Part shown: positions 2,818 to 60,021 of the stretch, piece by piece
How the letters are laid out: each line of letters starts with the position of its first letter
Position numbering within the stretch: the first letter of the stretch is position 1
Source: Pseudonocardia xinjiangensis
GTDB lineage: Bacteria; Actinomycetota; Actinomycetes; Mycobacteriales; Pseudonocardiaceae
Direction: 5' to 3'
DNA length: 64,000 nt
NCBI RefSeq assembly: GCF_012911925.1
Contig: NZ_JAAXKY010000003.1
Coordinates: forward strand, 62,001 to 126,000
Position numbers and translations under genes: made by a program
The notes under the pieces: generated by a model
Database searches by the model: none
What the model was told of the DNA's origin: nothing
What the model saw: only the letters and a program-made list of their open reading frames with translations

Positions 2818-3525
2818 ATGAGCGACAACGACGACGAGGAGCTGGGCGCCCTGTTCCGCGCCGCCGCCTCCGACCCCGGCGCCCCCGCGCCGCGCTTCGA
2901 CCACGACTCGGTGGTGAGCGCCTCCCGGCGCGCCACCGTCCGCAGGCGGGTGGCCGTGGCGGGGAGCGCGGTCGTGCTGCTCGCGGTGGCCGGCGTCGGT
3001 GCCGCGGTCACGCTGCCCGGTTCCCTGCGGGGCGACGACACCACGGTGGCCGCGCCGATGCTCGCGCCCGCCCCCGCCGCTGCGCCCGGGGCGCGGCAGG
3101 ACGCCGCGCCCGGTGCTGACGCCCGCGCCGAGGGTGCGGCGCCACCGCTGGGCCCGGTGGGCCGTCCACTCGGTCCGGGCACCACCGAGTGCGCCGACCG
3201 GCAGGACCCGGCCCTCCGGACGCTCGTCGAGGAGGTGCTGCCCGCCGTCCGTGACGCCTCCGAGGCGGCCACCACGATGGAGTGCCGCCCAGCAGGGGAG
3301 CGGGGCGTCAACGTCGAGATCGATGACGGTGGCGCCACCGGACTGCTGGCCGTGCAGTACCTCCCCCCGGGCACGATCGTGGCCCTCGTCCCGGGGGCCG
3401 TCAGCGCGCCGACGGCCTCCGGCGGCACGGTGATCGTGAGCTCGCGCCCGGCCGAGGTGGGCGCCCCGGCACCGTTCGAGGACAGGCTGACGTCCGTGGC
3501 GGGCTTCCTCGCCCCCCGCCTCTGA
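2818..3525 (+). CDS. Single-span membrane protein, probable anti-sigma partner
   Basis: The ATG start follows a GGAGAGG ribosome binding site, 15 bp after the sigma factor gene, so the two are probably co-transcribed. The 235-residue product has an acidic, soluble N-terminus of about 40 residues, one hydrophobic span at about residues 45-66 preceded by basic residues, then an Ala/Pro-rich linker and an extracytoplasmic region with two cysteines (TTECADR and MECRPA). This layout fits a cytoplasmic sigma-binding segment with an outside sensor. No zinc-binding anti-sigma HxxxCxxC motif is visible, so anti-sigma function is inferred from context only. Confidence 0.65.
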   Translation: MSDNDDEELGALFRAAASDPGAPAPRFDHDSVVSASRRATVRRRVAVAGSAVVLLAVAGVGAAVTLPGSLRGDDTTVAAPMLAPAPAAAPGARQDAAPGADARAEGAAPPLGPVGRPLGPGTTECADRQDPALRTLVEEVLPAVRDASEAATTMECRPAGERGVNVEIDDGGATGLLAVQYLPPGTIVALVPGAVSAPTASGGTVIVSSRPAEVGAPAPFEDRLTSVAGFLAPRL

Positions 3526-53334: not shown

Positions 53335-54279
53335 ATGCAGCTGCCCCTGACGACGAACGGGCTGGTCCCGGTGGGTGTGGGCGTCGTGGTCGCCCTCGCT
53401 CTCGTCCTCCTGATCGTGTTCGCAATGAGACGCAGGCGCCCGGTGGGCGCCGCCCCACACCTCCGGGATCGCGGCATGCGCGACTGGACAGGACTGGAAC
53501 CCCACCACGTCCTGGCCCCGCCGCCGCCCCCGGCGATGCCCGCGGTCCAGTGGTCCACCGGCCTCGCCGCGCCGTCGGCCCACCAGGACGCTCCGGTGCG
53601 TGGGTGGGGGGACGCGGCGCCGAAGGGCTACCCGGACTCCGCCTCCACCACCGGCAGTGCCGCCACCACCGGCAGCGGGGCGTCCGGCGGGTCGCCCGGC
53701 GAGGCGTACCCGGTCGCCGGACCGGGCACGCCCGCGGCGCCGCCCTCCACCCCGGCCGGCAACAACCACACCGTGCGGCCGTTGCTCAGCTCACTCGACG
53801 CTGCGTCGCGCAGCGGGCTGGGCTCCCGGTCCAACGCGGCCGACTCCACCGGATCCGGCCGTACGGTGGCAGCGGCGGTGGCGCAGGCGTTCGCCGTTCG
53901 GGCGGCGGCCGTCCGAAGTGGTCGCCTGGAGCAGATTCCGGGCACATCCGAGCGGAACGGGTCTGCTGCTCTCTCCACCCCGCCGACTGCGGTCCCGCCG
54001 AGTTCCGACCCGCCCGCGGCGAGCGCTGCGGTGCCCGCACAGCCGTCCACCGCGCAGGCCGACGTCCGCGACCGGCTGCTGGCCGTGCTGCTCGACGATC
54101 CGGCACGGGCGGTCGGTGCCACCGCCGAGCTGGAGGCGTGCCGCAGCCGGCTCCAGGACGTGCTGCACCGGCTCGCCGCCAGCGGTCTGCGCCCGGAGCA
54201 GCTCGCGCGTCTCGTCGAGCTCCCGGTCGAGGAGGTACGCACGATCCTCGCGTCAGCTGCCGGTTCCCCCGCCCACTAG
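53335..54279 (+). CDS. Single-span membrane protein with a low-complexity linker
   Basis: The 314-residue protein has a hydrophobic segment at about residues 9-31 (GLVPVGVGVVVALALVLLIVFAM) followed by RRRRPVG, so it is likely anchored with its long tail in the cytoplasm. A Gly/Ser/Ala/Pro linker leads to a C-terminal helical domain (AVLLDDPARAVGATAELEACRSRLQDVLHRLAASG...LVELPVEEVRTIL) of about 85 residues. The family is not recognised. It follows the DivIVA-like gene in the same direction, so they may work together at the membrane. The end is 3 bp from the convergent nitrobindin-like gene. Confidence 0.6.
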   Translation: MQLPLTTNGLVPVGVGVVVALALVLLIVFAMRRRRPVGAAPHLRDRGMRDWTGLEPHHVLAPPPPPAMPAVQWSTGLAAPSAHQDAPVRGWGDAAPKGYPDSASTTGSAATTGSGASGGSPGEAYPVAGPGTPAAPPSTPAGNNHTVRPLLSSLDAASRSGLGSRSNAADSTGSGRTVAAAVAQAFAVRAAAVRSGRLEQIPGTSERNGSAALSTPPTAVPPSSDPPAASAAVPAQPSTAQADVRDRLLAVLLDDPARAVGATAELEACRSRLQDVLHRLAASGLRPEQLARLVELPVEEVRTILASAAGSPAH

Positions 54280-54282
54280 GGC

Positions 54283-54909
54283 TCAGCCGGCGATCCGGCT
54301 CAGCCGGGCCGAGAGGTGGGGCTGCAGGGGCTGGCCCTCCATCGCCCGCTCGTCGACGTAGGCCAGGTCCCCGCCCTCGACGAGCCCGTACAGCCGATGC
54401 GACGCCGTCACCTCCTTGGCGGAAGCCGTGCGCACTATCGCGTCGGCCTCGATCTCCCAGGACGTCAGGTTCCGGGCGCGGCCGTAGAAGATCTCGCTGA
54501 TCCCGGTGGCGTGGGTGATGAGCACCTCGAGCTCCCCGTCGGGCTGAGGACGCCAGAAGCCGGTCTCCCGCGCTGCGGGCCGCAGCACCTCGCCGTCCGG
54601 ACCGAGCAGCCACGCCCTGGACTCGTAGGACAGGAACGGACGCCCGTCGTGGGCGAACACGATCTGCTGCCCGTAGGCGTACGGGCCGTCGATCGTCGGG
54701 TAGACGACCTCGCCAGCACCGCGCCACACCCCGACCAGGGGGAGCAGGCCGAGGCACTGCTCGTGCAGGTCGGGGCCTTCCCGGAGGTTCGCGGTGTCGT
54801 CCGGGACCGGGAGGTCCTCGAAACGGGGCCGGTTGCGCTGCGGTGAGTCGGGCGCTGCGTTCGCAGGCCCGGTGATCTGGCCGGGCAGCTCGGCCTCCGG
54901 GCCTGTCAC
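54283..54909 (-). CDS. Nitrobindin/FABP-like protein (Rv0813c-like)
   Basis: The 208-residue protein starts at GTG 54909, coupled to the preceding small gene by a GTGA overlap. It contains LLPLVGVWRGAGEVVYPTI (GxWxGxG...YPT, the nitrobindin signature) near residue 55, FLSYESRAWLL, and the C-terminal HLSARLSRIAG with a His at the usual place of the haem-binding ligand. The fold is a 10-stranded beta barrel. Nitrobindins bind ferric haem and handle peroxynitrite or NO; some relatives instead bind fatty acids. Neighbour genes match Rv0813c-Rv0815c in mycobacteria. Confidence 0.88.
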   Translation of the reverse strand: MTGPEAELPGQITGPANAAPDSPQRNRPRFEDLPVPDDTANLREGPDLHEQCLGLLPLVGVWRGAGEVVYPTIDGPYAYGQQIVFAHDGRPFLSYESRAWLLGPDGEVLRPAARETGFWRPQPDGELEVLITHATGISEIFYGRARNLTSWEIEADAIVRTASAKEVTASHRLYGLVEGGDLAYVDERAMEGQPLQPHLSARLSRIAG

Positions 54910-55037
54910 GGGGTGACCTCCCGGGTGACGTCAGGGGTGCCCGGTTCCGTCGTGAAGAGCCGCCGGAGCAGGTAGCCGGTGAACGCCGCGATGCCCGCGC
55001 TGGTCACGATCAGCAGGCCTGAGAAGAACCAGTTCAC
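54906..55037 (-). CDS. 43-residue single-span membrane protein
   Basis: Starting at GTG 55037, the product is NWFFSGLLIVTSAGIAAFTG followed by YLLRRLFTTEPGTPDVTREVTP, one membrane helix and a short hydrophilic tail. Its stop overlaps the nitrobindin-like start by GTGA, which is unlikely for a chance frame. The function is unknown; it may anchor or regulate its partner. Confidence 0.55.
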   Translation of the reverse strand: MNWFFSGLLIVTSAGIAAFTGYLLRRLFTTEPGTPDVTREVTP

Positions 55038-55140
55038 GGGCGGGCAGCCTAGTCCGTGCGCTGTCCGGTGCCGGGCGTGGCACGGGAAGGCCCCGTGCGC
55101 CATGACGCGGCGCACGGGGCCTGCCGGCAACTCGCTGGTC

Positions 55141-55443
55141 CTACGACGCCACCGCGACCTCGGCCTGGTGCAGGCCAGGGCCGTCGGCACTGAGCACGGT
55201 CTCGCCGTTGCCCGCACGGGACAGTGCGCGCAGCGTCCAGGTGCCGGGCGCTGCGAAGAACCGGAAGTCCCCGACTGCCGACGCCACGACCTCGGCGGTG
55301 AACTCACCCGTCCCGTCGAGCAGGCGGACGAACGCTCCGGGCACGGGCAGACCGTCGGCGACCACCCGCCCGGCGAGCACGGTCTCCTTGGTCAGGTCGG
55401 TACCGGGCGGCAGTGCGACCGCCTGGTCGGGCGCTCCGCACAT
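55141..55443 (-). CDS. DUF1416 protein (SseC-like)
   Basis: The 100-residue protein begins CGAPDQAVALPPGTDLTKE and has the DUF1416 pattern VLAGRVVADGLPVPGAFVRLLDGTGEF, AVGDFRFFAAPGTWTLRALSR. It resembles a small immunoglobulin-like or carboxypeptidase-regulatory fold. DUF1416 genes are typically paired with a rhodanese gene in actinobacteria (SseC2 with CysA2 in mycobacteria), and the start of this one overlaps the rhodanese stop by one base. Its job in sulfur transfer is not known. Confidence 0.9.
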   Translation of the reverse strand: MCGAPDQAVALPPGTDLTKETVLAGRVVADGLPVPGAFVRLLDGTGEFTAEVVASAVGDFRFFAAPGTWTLRALSRAGNGETVLSADGPGLHQAEVAVAS

Positions 55444-56282
55444 CAGCGGCTCACCTCCAGCTCGATCGGGACGCCGACGAGGGAGCCGTACTCGACCCAG
55501 CTGCCGTCGTAGTTCTTGACGTCGCTCCGGCCGAGCAGTTCGTGCAGCACCACCCAGGTGTGCGAGCTGCGCTCGCCGATGCGGCAGTAGGCGATCGTCG
55601 CCTTGCCCTCGTCGAAGCCGGCCTCGCCGTAGAGCGCCGTGAGCTCCTCATCGGACTTGAATGTGCCGTCCTCGTTGGCCGCCTTGCTCCACGGGATGTT
55701 GATCGCGGAGGGCACGTGGCCGCGCCGCTGCGACTGCTCCTGCGGCAGGTGGGCGGGCGCCAGGATCTTGCCGGAGAACTCGTCGGGCGAGCGCACGTCG
55801 ACCAGGTTCTTCGTGCCGATCGAGTCGACGACCTCGTCACGGAAGGCCCGGATGCTGAGGTCCGGCTCCTGCGCCGTGTAGGTGGTGGCGCTGCGCTCGG
55901 CGACGTCGGAGGTGAGGGGGCGCCCGTCGAGCTCCCACTTCTTGCGGCCGCCGTCGAGCAGCTTGACGTTCTGGTGGCCGTAGAGCTTGAACTCCCAGTA
56001 CGCGTAGGCCGCGAACCAGTTGTTGTTGCCCCCGTAGAGGACGACGGTGTCGTCGGTGCCGACACCCTTGGCCGACAGGAGCTGCTCGAACTGCTCCTTG
56101 GTGACGATGTCGCGTCGCACCGGGTCCTGGAGATCGGTGGTCCAGTTGATCTTGACGGCACCGGGGAGGTGACCACCGTCGTAGGCGGTGGTGTCCTCGT
56201 CGACCTCGAGGAAGACGATCCCGTCGGTCCCGAGGTTCTTCTCGGCCCAGTCTGCTGTGACCAGGACGTCCTGACGGCTCAT
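55443..56282 (-). CDS. Thiosulfate sulfurtransferase (rhodanese), CysA2/SseA-like
   Basis: The 279-residue protein has tandem rhodanese domains: the first, inactive one carries YDGGHLPGAVKINWTTDL at about residues 34-51, and the second carries the DVRSPDEFSG motif and the catalytic loop with Cys233 in IAYCRIGERSSHT. It starts DVLVTADWAEKNLGTDGI. It transfers the sulfane sulfur of thiosulfate or a persulfide to an acceptor such as cyanide or a thiol protein. Stop/start overlaps with DUF4395 and DUF1416 show a single operon, preceded by a cysteine-rich leader peptide. Confidence 0.95.
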   Translation of the reverse strand: MSRQDVLVTADWAEKNLGTDGIVFLEVDEDTTAYDGGHLPGAVKINWTTDLQDPVRRDIVTKEQFEQLLSAKGVGTDDTVVLYGGNNNWFAAYAYWEFKLYGHQNVKLLDGGRKKWELDGRPLTSDVAERSATTYTAQEPDLSIRAFRDEVVDSIGTKNLVDVRSPDEFSGKILAPAHLPQEQSQRRGHVPSAINIPWSKAANEDGTFKSDEELTALYGEAGFDEGKATIAYCRIGERSSHTWVVLHELLGRSDVKNYDGSWVEYGSLVGVPIELEVSR

Positions 56283-56743
56283 GCGGTGGCTCCCTGTTGG
56301 TTGTTCTTCCGGAAACGGGCGATCACTGCGTACAGCTCGCAGCCCAGGCAGAAGCCGAAGGCGGCGTTGAGGAAGGCGGCGGCCAGTGCGAAGGCGGTGG
56401 CGACGATGCCGAGGCCGGTGAGACCGGCGAGGTAACCGACAGTACCTATGACGGCGAACACGAGGCCGACGGTTTGCGAGAACCGCACCGGGGCGGCCTC
56501 TTCCCGCTCGGTGGGCGGTCTGAGCCGCGGCGCGACCAGTACCCGGAACAGCACCGCGTAGGGCGAGAACCGGAGGCCGGCGATCGAGCCGAGCGCGAAC
56601 ACGAGCGCCTGTGCGCCGAGCAGCCAGCCGCTACCGCTGACGAGCACCAGAGCGAGAACGAGAGTGGTGAGTGCCGCCGAGAAGCGGACGCCGCGCGGAT
56701 CGACGGGCGGATCGCGGCGCGCGGGGGCGGCGGGCGTGGACAT
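56279..56743 (-). CDS. DUF4395 membrane protein
   Basis: The 154-residue protein starts at ATG 56743 (AGGAG site) and overlaps the rhodanese start by ATGA. It has four hydrophobic helices (two at about residues 22-55 and two at about 92-140) and a distinctive FGFCLGCELYAVIARFRK near the C-terminus, where two cysteines sit at the membrane face. DUF4395 proteins often occur beside rhodanese or thioredoxin genes; they may bring sulfur or thiols to the membrane. It is the first structural gene of the leader-controlled operon. Confidence 0.85.
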   Translation of the reverse strand: MSTPAAPARRDPPVDPRGVRFSAALTTLVLALVLVSGSGWLLGAQALVFALGSIAGLRFSPYAVLFRVLVAPRLRPPTEREEAAPVRFSQTVGLVFAVIGTVGYLAGLTGLGIVATAFALAAAFLNAAFGFCLGCELYAVIARFRKNNQQGATA

Positions 56744-56782
56744 GGGGATGCTCCTGAGGACGGGTGCGAGGGGACGCGGATC

Positions 56783-56857
56783 TCAGGAGGTGCGACAGAG
56801 GCAGCTACCGACGCGGCACAGGTCGACTGCGCGTCGTCGGGTCAGCGGCCAGCACAC
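56783..56857 (-). CDS. Cysteine-rich leader peptide upstream of the sulfur-transfer operon
   Basis: From GTG 56857 the frame encodes 24 residues, CWPLTRRRAVDLCRVGSCLC then RTS, and stops at 56783-56785, 39 bp before the DUF4395 start. It has four cysteines, three near the end, and matches the style of Cys-rich leader peptides (VDLCR...C.C) found before sulfur genes in actinobacteria. A TACCCT -10 ends 7 bases before the GTG, so it would be translated from a leaderless message. Ribosome stalling at Cys codons when charged Cys-tRNA is scarce could raise expression of the downstream genes. The frame is too short for routine gene finding. Confidence 0.65.
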   Translation of the reverse strand: MCWPLTRRRAVDLCRVGSCLCRTS

Positions 56858-56864
56858 GGGGGCG

Positions 56865-56870
56865 AGGGTA
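56865..56870 (-). promoter_or_regulatory. -10 element for the leader peptide and sulfur operon
   Basis: TACCCT on the minus strand ends 7 bases before the leader-peptide GTG. The -35 region is weak. Confidence 0.45.
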
Positions 56871-56936
56871 ACCGAGGATTGCTGCTTTCGGGAGCGGGGT
56901 GTAGCTGCACAAATCGTCCGCGTGGCGGGAAGCCGC

Positions 56937-57374
56937 TCACGCCGACCCCGTGCCGGTCAGGCGGGGTGCGATCGCAGCCTCCAGTTCGGGGAGCCGGGGC
57001 ACGCCCGAGATGCGGAGCAGCTCCGCCCCGTCACGGGTGAAGGCGACGACCGTCGGTGTCCGCATCACCGAGAGCTCGCGGGCGACGTCGGGCCGTTCGG
57101 CGACGTCGATCTCGAGGTGCACCACGCCGGGGCGGCGGGCGGAGAGGTCCGTCAGCAGCTCCGCGGTGCGGCGGCACGGCGTGCACACGGGGGAGGACAG
57201 CTGCAGCAACAGGACCCGGTCCGAGGCGGCGGGGGCGGTGCCGGCGAGCGCCCATCCGCCGGACGCGGCGCCGCCGGTGCGCATCCGGCCGGCGCGGGCC
57301 CGCACCACCAGCCCCACCGCCGTGGCGAGCGCCAGCGTGCCCACCAGAACCAGGAGACCGGGGTCACTGATCAT
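56937..57374 (-). CDS. Membrane-tethered thioredoxin-fold protein (ThiX-like)
   Basis: The 145-residue protein has an N-terminal hydrophobic helix (residues about 5-25) and a thioredoxin domain with redox motif Cys64-Thr-Pro-Cys67 in LLLQLSSPVCTPCRRTAELL, followed by VHLEIDVAERPDVARELSVMRTPTVVAF, which carries the cis-Pro (TPTVVAF). It would act in thiol-disulfide exchange at the membrane. It corresponds by position to thiX (Rv0816c) in the mycobacterial order. A 79-bp gap separates it from the leader peptide. Confidence 0.85.
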   Translation of the reverse strand: MISDPGLLVLVGTLALATAVGLVVRARAGRMRTGGAASGGWALAGTAPAASDRVLLLQLSSPVCTPCRRTAELLTDLSARRPGVVHLEIDVAERPDVARELSVMRTPTVVAFTRDGAELLRISGVPRLPELEAAIAPRLTGTGSA

Positions 57375-57422
57375 GCCGGTGGCAACGCGACGGGGGCGCG
57401 GTGTACTCCCGGGTCGTCCGGA

Positions 57423-58202
57423 TCAGGACGGTGTCGGGGCACCGAGGGTGAGGTTACGGGCCTCGCCGCTGATCTCGAGCTGCCCGTTGTTGGCCCGCAG
57501 CGCGGTGGGGGTGACCTGCAACGGGAGCGAACCGGGATCGATGCGCACCGTGAACAGCTGCTGCAGTGTCCGCTGGATCGCCTGCGGGACGGGCTGGTTG
57601 TCGTCGCCGAGCCGGATGTCCTGCGGGACGATCTGCGCCTGGCCGCCGTCGAGCTGCAGCTCAGCGATGACCGACACCGGCGTCTCCTGGCCCAGGAACG
57701 ATCCGGTGCCCGAGAGCCGGGCGACGTTGTCGGGATCGAGCCGCGTGAGCGCCGGGTCGCCGCCGTCCTCGACGGCCTGCTGCAACGCCTCGTCGTCGAC
57801 CGTGTCGATCCGGAGGTCCTTGATGCCCGGCACGAGCCGTTCCACGTCGGTGGCCGACACGCTCACCGTGCCCTCGGCGTTGCCCACCTGCAGTGTCTTC
57901 GGGCCGGAGCCCAGCAGCATCGACAGCGGCGCCGTGACGTTGCGGAGCTGCGCCGAGACGTCGAGCTCCTGCAGCTGTCCGACGCGGATCCGGGTCGCGT
58001 CGACGTCGATGCTGCGGTAGTGGCCGGACAGTGCCTGCGTGAGGAACGGGAAGCCGTTGATCCGGACCGACGGGTCGTCCACGAGCCCGATCTGCTGCCG
58101 CATCTGCCGTGACACGGCCGACTCGGCAAGGGCGGCGGACCCGTAGTCGACGGCCACGAGCAGCCCGACCAGCACGAGCAGCCCGATGACCACGCGCTTC
58201 AT
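57423..58202 (-). CDS. DUF2993 protein, LmeA-like
   Basis: The 259-residue protein starts at ATG 58202 with a hydrophobic signal or anchor helix (residues 4-23) and then a DUF2993 body: AESAVSRQMRQQIGLVDDPSVRINGFPFLTQALSGHY, RIRVGQLQELDVSAQLRNVTAP and so on. By position it matches Rv0817c, which I recall is LmeA, a periplasmic protein needed to finish the lipoglycan/lipomannan backbone in mycobacteria. It would act at the outer face of the membrane in phosphatidylinositol-mannoside lipoglycan assembly. It overlaps the hydrolase stop by ATGA. Confidence 0.87.
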   Translation of the reverse strand: MKRVVIGLLVLVGLLVAVDYGSAALAESAVSRQMRQQIGLVDDPSVRINGFPFLTQALSGHYRSIDVDATRIRVGQLQELDVSAQLRNVTAPLSMLLGSGPKTLQVGNAEGTVSVSATDVERLVPGIKDLRIDTVDDEALQQAVEDGGDPALTRLDPDNVARLSGTGSFLGQETPVSVIAELQLDGGQAQIVPQDIRLGDDNQPVPQAIQRTLQQLFTVRIDPGSLPLQVTPTALRANNGQLEISGEARNLTLGAPTPS

Positions 58203-59080
58203 CCGACCTCCGACCCTGGTGCCCGGCGCTCTGCCGGGGTGCGGGGTCCGACCGTAGAGCCGCCGCCGTTGGTGCGTTCGCCCGGGATGGCACTCGACGC
58301 GGCGGCGAGCGCCCACAGGGCGATGCGCTCGGCGAGTTCGGGGCCGGTTCCGCTCTCGCCGTGGCCCTCGCCCGGCTCGGTCCACAGCTGTGCGTGGCCG
58401 CCCGACGCCGCGGCCAGGGCTTCCGGGTGCGCCGCCGAGAAGTAGTGGTCACCGGCGAAGTGGACGAGCAGCAGCGGCACCGGCGCCACCGCCGCGACGA
58501 CCTCCACCGGTGAGGGCGGGACCACGTCCCACGCCGAGTCAAGGCGAACACCGAGCAGGCGGGCGACGGCGCGGCCGTGCGGCTGCTCCAGCAGCCAGTG
58601 CACCCGGCGCATCGCAGGTGTCTCGCGGGAGTACCAGCGTGCGGGGCCGCTGACGGCGACCACTGCGTCGGGACGGACCGTGCCTGCTGTGGCCTGGCGC
58701 AGCGCCACCGCCGCACCCAGGGAGAAGCCGACCGTGGCCACCCGGGAGTAGCCGGCGTCCCGGGCCCACCGCACGGCTGCGTCGAGGTCGAGCAGCTCCC
58801 GGTCGCCCACGGTGGTGCGCCCGCCCGAGCGACCGTGCCCCCGCATGTCGAGGGCGACCACCGGCGCCTGGCCGCTGAGGGCCTCCAGAACCACACGGGT
58901 GACGGGGAGGCGCGTGTGATGGGTGAACCCGTGACACACGGCGAGTGCGGTGTCCCCGCCGGGTCCTGGGAGGTGCATTCCGGAGAGTGAGACGCCGTCC
59001 AAGGTCGTTACGTTCAGCGCACGGTGCGTGACCTGCGCCGCGCCGCTCTTCCGATCGGCCCTCACGCAGTTATCCTGCAT
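58199..59080 (-). CDS. Alpha/beta hydrolase
   Basis: The product has an oxyanion-hole stretch VCHGFTHHTRLPV, the nucleophile elbow GFSLGAA with Ser, an acid in HFAGDHYFS and the catalytic His in GEGHGESG. The Pfam-like hydrolase body starts at VTHRALNVTTLDGVSL, so GTG 59032 (277 aa) is an alternative to ATG 59080 (293 aa). It is probably a cytosolic esterase or lipase-like enzyme of unknown substrate. It is coupled to the LmeA-like gene by an ATGA overlap. Confidence 0.85.
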   Translation of the reverse strand: MQDNCVRADRKSGAAQVTHRALNVTTLDGVSLSGMHLPGPGGDTALAVCHGFTHHTRLPVTRVVLEALSGQAPVVALDMRGHGRSGGRTTVGDRELLDLDAAVRWARDAGYSRVATVGFSLGAAVALRQATAGTVRPDAVVAVSGPARWYSRETPAMRRVHWLLEQPHGRAVARLLGVRLDSAWDVVPPSPVEVVAAVAPVPLLLVHFAGDHYFSAAHPEALAAASGGHAQLWTEPGEGHGESGTGPELAERIALWALAAASSAIPGERTNGGGSTVGPRTPAERRAPGSEVG

Positions 59081-59205
59081 CGATCCGCGTGGTGTGTTCC
59101 GACCGGGTCACGCGGGTGTGAACGGTGCGTCAGCGTCGCCCGCCGTGATCGGACGAGGGGCGCCGCACCGGCGCCTCGGCTCCCGGTGTGGAAAGGAGGC
59201 ACCAC

Positions 59206-59985
59206 GTGGAACTCCTTCTGCTGACCGCCGATCCCGATCCGGGATCCGTGCTGCCGGCCCTGACATTGCTCCCCCACGGGGTCCGCACGGCGGCGCCCGA
59301 GGTGGCCGCGCTGCTGGACGCCGGCCCGCACGACGCCGTACTGGTCGACGCACGCACCGACCTCGTGGCGGCCCGCAGCCTGTGCCGCCTGCTGGGCAGC
59401 ACCGGCATGGACGTGCCGGTGATCGCGGTGCTCACCGAGGGTGGCCTGGTGGCGGTGTCGGGCGAGTGGGTCGTCGACGAGATACTCCTGCCCGGTGCCG
59501 GTCCGGCCGAGGTGGACGCGCGGCTGCGGCTGCTCAAGTCCCGCCCGGGCGGCGACGCAGGCCGCGACGGCGGCGCGCTGGTGCTCGGCGAGCTGGTGAT
59601 CGACGAGGCCACGTACGCGGCGCGCCTGCGCGGCAGGCTCCTCGAGCTCACCTACAAGGAGTTCGAGCTGCTCAAGTACCTCGCGCAGCACGCCGGCCGG
59701 GTCTTCACCCGCGCTCAGCTCCTCCAGGAGGTGTGGGGCTACGACTTCTTCGGCGGCACCCGGACCGTCGACGTGCACGTGCGGCGGCTGCGCGCCAAGC
59801 TCGGCACGGAGCACGAGCAGATGATCGGCACCGTGCGCAACGTCGGCTACAAGTTCGTCCGGCCCAGCCGAGGTCACCTCGGGTCAGCCCCGGTCGGCAT
59901 CGTCGACGACGATGGTGGCGGCGACGATGGCGAGGAGACCGACCGGGCCAACGGCCGCGTCAACGGTGTCGCCGGACTGGTGTGA
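59206..59985 (+). CDS. glnR: GlnR-type orphan response regulator
   Basis: The 259-residue protein starts at GTG 59206 behind GGAAAGGAGG. The receiver-like N-terminus (residues 1-115) keeps an Asp at position 48 in AVLVDART but lacks a full acidic pocket, as in GlnR, which works without a kinase. The C-terminal OmpR winged helix (residues about 130-225) has [53 protein letters not shown] and ends RNVGYKFV. GlnR controls nitrogen genes, including glnA and transporters, in actinobacteria. The place between an LmeA-like gene and mshD matches mycobacterial Rv0818. Confidence 0.92.
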
Positions 59986-60021
59986 TCAGCAGCTCCGCGT
60001 CCCGCACGAGGGGGGCGGGGG

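Follow-up and report, generated by a model that had tools for sequence, protein, structure and literature searches.

The locus examined here raises the question of whether a very short reading frame, rich in cysteine codons and lying just ahead of a rhodanese operon, senses the supply of cysteine and, if so, by which codon and through which step of gene expression. The window analyzed, a stretch of 64,000 nucleotides from Pseudonocardia xinjiangensis, carries three consecutive genes on its minus strand, encoding a DUF4395 protein of 154 aa (56279-56743; PF14340, 3.6e-45), a two-domain rhodanese of 279 aa (55443-56282; PF00581 in two stretches, 6.4e-33) and a DUF1416 protein of 100 aa (55141-55443; PF07210, 3e-40). 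Upstream on the same strand, a frame of 24 codons (56783-56857) runs from a GTG at 56857 to a TGA at 56785-56783 and encodes the peptide MCWPLTRRRAVDLCRVGSCLCRTS, assigned as a leader peptide from its translation and its matches to the profiles NF042934 and NF042933. Four of its codons (2, 14, 19 and 21) specify Cys. The hexamer TACCCT (56865-56870, minus strand), a -10-like box of the form TANNNT in an arrangement kept in relatives, is separated from the GTG by the seven nucleotides CGCCCCC, and 39 nt lie between the leader stop and the DUF4395 ATG at 56743. The original prediction had described this four-cysteine GTG frame, the box seven bases before it, the stop 39 bp ahead of DUF4395 and the order of the three genes, all of which were borne out by the translation, the coordinates and the domain matches. 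The span that it gave, 56783-56870, takes in the promoter box, since TACCCT begins at 56870; reading from that base gives a frame other than that of the leader. A CTPC-motif thioredoxin-like protein (PF00085, 1.4e-7) is encoded at 56937-57374, also on the minus strand, and adjoins the leader upstream.

GC-rich DNA contains many short frames, and 76 open frames of at least 20 aa overlap positions 53500-60000 alone, so that a chance frame without function had to be weighed against conservation. For this purpose 216 DUF4395 loci were used: the window, 35 named loci (the confirmed relatives among the matches listed) and 180 loci from genomes of the same family, order and class. The latter were part of those found (90 + 90, the second half among the matches listed) and were picked for genus spread; named loci may share species with them, and genus counts omit the named loci. 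Among the matches listed, in the 35 named loci, the DUF4395 protein nearest to that of the window was from P. alaniniphila (84% identical). Leaders were sought within about 600 nt upstream, and a frame counted as one only if it carried a VD motif and, ahead of its stop, one Cys or more; some Cys is thus present by construction, whereas its position and codon are not imposed. Such a leader was found in 195 of the 216 loci (194 by a slightly different pattern) and was absent, within about 600 nt upstream, from the other 21. After removal of identical leader DNA 179 distinct leaders remained, 176 of them with an assigned start and 162 of these with a recognised Shine-Dalgarno sequence and at least 15 nt from stop to start. 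An eight-region alignment of leaders was also prepared, the rows of which cover differing stretches, and no count rests on it. Over columns 0-9, the entropies of the three codon positions were 0.56, 0.33 and 1.17 bits, compared with 1.79 for intergenic DNA, and the Arg of column 0 was encoded by all six codons across the DUF4395 leaders. By these entropies, what is kept constant in the leaders is the peptide rather than the RNA. The family match, the presence in most of the loci and this codon pattern already contradict a chance frame, which we regard as extremely improbable.

In one genus (f20_g68) no leader was present in the stretch read for any of the seven DUF4395 loci examined (L163, L175, L177 and L202-L205); genomes of this genus bear RRAVDLC leaders elsewhere (L292, L294). 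In Pseudonocardia sp. CNS-139 (L014, DUF4395 at 3001), comparison with relatives placed the loss of the leader frame just ahead of the putative sensor Cys described below, by decay or by sequencing error.

In 159 of the 179 distinct leaders TANNNT stood 5-9 nt ahead of an ATG or GTG in frame, with a spacing of 7 in 136, and the same search in two out-of-frame controls gave 13 of 179. This conserved arrangement supports the leaderless-type start that had been proposed for the window. A scan for sigma-70-type sites with two hexamers returned no promoter-like site for the TACCCT region.

The window leader matched NF042934 (cis_reg_atten, putative leader peptide domain) with 31.2 bits, over the cut-off of 27 (1.1e-7), and NF042933 (Ms5788A Cys-rich leader) with 39.1 bits, under the cut-off of 45 and with a better E-value (4.3e-10). 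The original prediction supposed that ordinary gene finding would miss the frame; NCBIfam already has models for such leader peptides. NF042934 describes a sequence domain only, with no mechanism attached. As judged from the NF042934 score, the window leader is one of a known family of leaders that probably act as cysteine-sensing switches, in agreement with the original prediction. At least nine further NF042934 copies with Cys at the sensor place occur in the same genome. In the phylum sample NF042934 matches (1e-4) were detected in 6 of 119 genomes, all six from the same class.

An Ms5788A-type leaderless Cys-rich frame precedes cysA2/Msmeg_5788 and is occupied by ribosomes in M. smegmatis (Shell et al., 2015, PMC4633059). 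The window leader resembles it in the rhodanese operon that follows, the position expected of the NF042933 type (PMC4633059), as well as in its leaderless-type start, its LT[RK]RRAVDLCRV core and the Cys near its end; it differs in scoring under the NF042933 cut-off and in having no run of adjacent Cys codons. Cysteine-dependent attenuation by such frames is credited to Canestrari et al. (2020, Mol Microbiol) in the papers that cite that work (PMC9031893, PMC13236596). The mycobacterial polycysteine attenuators, as known here through these citing papers, share with the window leader a leaderless short Cys frame before a sulfur operon, and their attenuation follows the Cys supply, as that of the window leader presumably would. 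By contrast, they have contiguous Cys codons, whereas the four Cys codons of the window leader are separated, one of them being a conserved UGU sensor candidate. The uORFC-8-2 frame before cysS in Rhodobacterales (PMC8632094) is likewise an attenuating leader frame with Cys codons, but it works with an intrinsic terminator and has tandem Cys codons among which UGC, the opposite codon, dominates. The original prediction had drawn on the mycobacterial polycysteine frames and on VDLCR-type leader peptides as separate analogies. Both fit; their separation does not, as the window peptide is itself VDLCR and joins the two.

The four Cys codons of the window leader differed greatly in conservation. 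Cys21, ten codons past the Val of VD (codon TGT, 56795-56797, minus strand), was Cys in 178 of the 179 distinct leaders, and the codon at this position was TGT in 176, TGC in 2 and CGT in 1. Cys14, the C of VDLC (codon TGC, 56816-56818, minus strand; not the proposed sensor), was Cys in 147 leaders and Cys19 in only 40, and near relatives have Asn or Tyr in place of Cys2. In the leaders read, VD and the proposed sensor Cys stood a fixed distance apart, the one exception among the 179 having Arg at that place, and between 0 and 36 residues followed the sensor Cys. The two conserved positions had opposite codon preferences: for the Cys of VDxC, TGC was found in 140 and TGT in 7 of 147 leaders, and the leaders with both Cys (147) had TGC then TGT in 139, TGT in both places in 6, TGC in both in 1 and TGT then TGC in 1. 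The background share of TGT among Cys codons was 15% in long GC3-rich frames of the window (37/249), 13% in frames of the named loci (58/451) and, for 60 loci, 19% in the frames flanking them (159/850). The sensor codon was TGT throughout in 80 of 82 genera, from 23 families, with L184, L187 and L206 as the exceptions. The expected conservation in relatives held for the Cys of consequence, Cys21, and the proposed cluster of Cys residues found no support as the sensor, conservation singling out the UGU at Cys21.

The regularity extended to leaders of another peptide type. When NF042934 was run against 40 genomes of the class and the window's genome, 78 of the leaders obtained were read (69 from the class genomes, 9 from the window's genome). 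Of these, 58 were assigned to another peptide type, in which the residue before VD is not A, V, T or S, and the remaining 20 to the RRAVD type; some of these 20 are DUF4395 leaders already counted, and every counted DUF4395 leader is of this first type. TGT was the sensor codon in 57 of the 58 and in 19 of the 20, and the window's genome had TGT in all ten leaders with Cys at the sensor place. The genes following the 58 were looked at for eight leaders, in the window's genome only, taking one downstream frame each; the products were a sulfite/nitrite reductase, a PLP enzyme of Cys/Met metabolism, two luciferase-like monooxygenases, an acyl-CoA dehydrogenase, a solute-binding protein, a PF03601 protein and a DAO oxidoreductase. 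Several of these products fit, as we assume, sulfur metabolism. UGU would be read by wobble by the one tRNA-Cys, with the anticodon GCA. The codon comparisons suggest that in leaders of various types a single UGU codon, Cys21 in the window, probably acts as the sensor. No report of this UGU regularity was recognised in a literature search that covered listings and excerpts and drew on Canestrari et al. (2020) through the papers citing it. In L045, a VDLCR leader on the minus strand in the window's genome (LRLVRRWHVDLCRTSTAV), a TGA stands exactly at the place of the sensor Cys, ten codons past Val.

The UGU might instead be kept not as a codon but as an element of the RNA, which either pairs with another segment or is recognised by an RNA-binding protein or a nuclease. 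The lone leader without Cys21 has CGT, so that GT is kept there, and the base after UGU is C in 148 of the 179 leaders, as an RNA element would allow. Against this, the neighbouring third positions (columns 12 and 14) vary, the base before the codon differs in the wider family (C 48, G 24, T 3), and the invariant A of the Asp codon, a possible partner of the U, has no covarying neighbour pair (75/179, compared with 90.8 expected). An RNA element is thus rather unlikely, and a codon read by the ribosome is preferred.

A possible output of such a codon became apparent when the structure of the window RNA was predicted (-49.8 kcal/mol, z -2.76): CUCCUGAG, holding the leader stop, pairs in this fold with CUCAGGAG, holding the Shine-Dalgarno sequence of DUF4395. 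The putative anti-Shine-Dalgarno CTCCTGAG, which includes the leader stop codon (56782-56789, minus strand), is marked both by this fold and by a peak of complementarity at the stop; its partner CTCAGGAG, the Shine-Dalgarno sequence with a 5' extension (56751-56758, minus strand), is assigned from the sequence, the predicted fold and relatives. Sequestration of the next gene's Shine-Dalgarno sequence by the leader, as in translational attenuators, is predicted by the fold and, as detailed below, backed by covariation. A scan of 55000-58500 with Rfam produced no family match over threshold, the sole sub-threshold match being malK-III on the opposite strand (57731-57825; 19.5 of 50 bits). A hairpin inside the RRAVDLCRV coding stretch, which had appeared in the window fold as a conserved candidate, was dropped because third positions vary there.

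A general test of duplex energy over 175 loci gave a weak signal (mean z -0.74; 22% at rank 5 of 100 or better), and the test anchored on the stop codon was made after its output and so is not an independent prediction. In the stop-anchored test 6-mers complementary to the Shine-Dalgarno region were found in 35 of 162 loci at stop offset -3 (permuted mean 21.4, maximum 29; 200 permutations) and in 30 of 162 at offset -1 (permuted mean 11.2, maximum 19). Outside offsets -5 to +1 the counts were 0 to 5, those at offsets -14 to -12 (4 to 5) slightly exceeding the permuted means. The base after the leader stop, which is noncoding, covaries with its Shine-Dalgarno partner, being paired in 95 of 162 loci (permuted mean 70.3, maximum 85; 2000 permutations, which ignore kinship). 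The two stop bases before it gave z values of 2.8 and 3.5 (162 loci; the permutations again ignore kinship), and the base two positions further on paired below expectation (46/162, z -2.3). When each of the 77 genera contributed a single locus, z averaged 3.4 at the base after the stop, compared with 1.3 and 1.8 at the two bases within it. The pair types at the base after the stop were C-G 59, T-G 9, G-T 6, G-C 5, A-T 3 and T-A 3, adding up to 85 of 133 short leaders. Among the 133 loci whose stop follows the sensor by no more than four residues, 66 had the complement; of the 29 with longer tails, 2 did. These patterns indicate, at the level of sequence comparison, that in some DUF4395 operons the leader stop codon doubles as an anti-Shine-Dalgarno. 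The stop-codon hairpin is not the general mechanism, as it was seen in only 66 of the 162 usable loci and in 1 of the 58 other-type leaders (0.5 expected), in which something else may act.

Two further complementarities were noted. The Leu-Thr codons CTGACC (columns -3 and -2; 56845-56840) complement GGTCAG, which precedes many DUF4395 Shine-Dalgarno sequences. As a second anti-Shine-Dalgarno this element was rejected: its register fits, but true pairs were not clearly above permuted ones (13 compared with 11.6 for the 6-mer at offset -9; 6 compared with 2.7, maximum 7, for the 7-mer at offset -10). In three leaders of mycobacterial type (L183, L193 and L036) the run of Cys codons TGTTGTTG complements the DUF4395 Shine-Dalgarno sequence CAACAGGAG, in the manner of the LEU element; this complementarity did not exceed that of shuffles. 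The LEU element of leuA in Actinobacteria (PMC1262725) resembles the window in that a region of the leader peptide pairs with the Shine-Dalgarno sequence of the next gene; there the paired region is the run of Leu codons, with a proposed pseudoknot, whereas in the window the stop codon is predicted to pair.

The same data bear on whether translation of the leader might govern Rho-dependent (or intrinsic) termination before DUF4395. Mycobacterium cys leaders have been described as lacking conserved hairpins, with Rho suggested as the factor (Seliverstov et al., 2005, PMC1262725), and the near absence of the stop-codon hairpin from other-type leaders would also agree with such transcriptional attenuation. 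Nevertheless, no terminator-like site (intrinsic terminators, as GC-rich hairpin plus U run, numbering 0) was found in 56600-57000, the 39 nt from stop to start would leave little room for Rho to load, and the covariation between the stop region and the Shine-Dalgarno sequence points to translation. Termination of transcription is accordingly considered unlikely, though the least so of the alternatives weighed here. Another possibility is that translation of the leader merely delivers ribosomes to DUF4395, in which case shortage of Cys would lower expression. Leaderless leaders do bring ribosomes near the next start, and reinitiation after leader frames has been proposed in Actinobacteria (PMC4833913). 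The distance to be bridged, 39 nt here and a median of 80.5 nt (range -41 to 186) over 176 loci, appears far for this, and reinitiation leaves one nearly invariant UGU codon unexplained; we hold it to be improbable.

Translational attenuation was also consistent with the predicted effect of a ribosome on the window RNA. For every tested A-site position up to codon 19 (column 11), the Shine-Dalgarno sequence had a predicted unpaired probability of 0.00-0.05, and with a ribosome at the Cys of VDLC it is predicted to stay closed (0.01); the probability rose to 0.26 at codon 20 (column 12) and to 0.41 at the UGU (column 13). In the 66 loci selected for the hairpin the predicted switch was, on average, sharp, with a mean exposure of 0.17 at column 11 and 0.31 at column 12, a place that partly follows from the selection. 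In unselected loci the predicted gain was about equal in short (0.095) and long (0.080) leaders, and the switch is not specific there.

Taken together, these observations make it probable, with room for doubt, that a leaderless leader peptide of the VDLCR/Ms5788A kind controls DUF4395-rhodanese-DUF1416 by translational attenuation. Transcription would begin at or next to the GTG, as the conserved TANNNT-7 nt-start arrangement implies, and ribosomes would load on the 5' end. When Cys-tRNA is ample, the ribosome would pass the UGU at codon 21, terminate and leave, whereupon the stop segment CUCCUGAG would pair with the Shine-Dalgarno segment CUCAGGAG, a pairing predicted by the fold and backed by covariation, and DUF4395 would be poorly translated. 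When Cys-tRNA is scarce, the ribosome would wait with the UGU in its A site, mask the anti-Shine-Dalgarno and free the DUF4395 start, with which the predicted geometry is compatible. The RRxVDxxR motif, at a fixed distance before the UGU and conserved as peptide, probably aids the stall as a nascent chain. Since a ribosome at the stop codon likewise covers the anti-Shine-Dalgarno, the model rests on dwell time. The cysteine-responsive attenuation put forward in the original prediction thus stands as the best reading, favored by the conservation of Cys21 and the position before a sulfur operon, and, like that proposal, is deduced from sequence.

More tentatively, a class-wide sulfur regulon may be read by one control codon, nearly always UGU, that is sensitised by the nascent chain and has outputs differing by operon. 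RRxVDxxR would then lie in the exit tunnel when the UGU, ten codons after Val, occupies the A site, and the nascent chain could sensitise the ribosome so that a single wobble-decoded Cys codon suffices, in a hybrid of hungry-codon attenuation and arrest peptide. The same sensor would serve different outputs, one of which, in part of the DUF4395 operons, would be the Shine-Dalgarno hairpin on the leader stop codon.

Actinobacterial Cys leader peptides were described as early as 2005, and how they regulate was then stated to be unknown (PMC1262725). What the present comparison adds is that one UGU is singled out as the candidate sensor, that RRxVDxxR, always equally far from it, appears to be conserved for its peptide sequence, and that in some operons the leader stop codon would act as an anti-Shine-Dalgarno. 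For the annotation of such leaders, the comparison shows which Cys codon to inspect. The hypotheses reduce to two sharp targets, a single base of the UGU and the stop-codon segment with its partner. For the biology of this family, one codon may suffice where other attenuators use runs.
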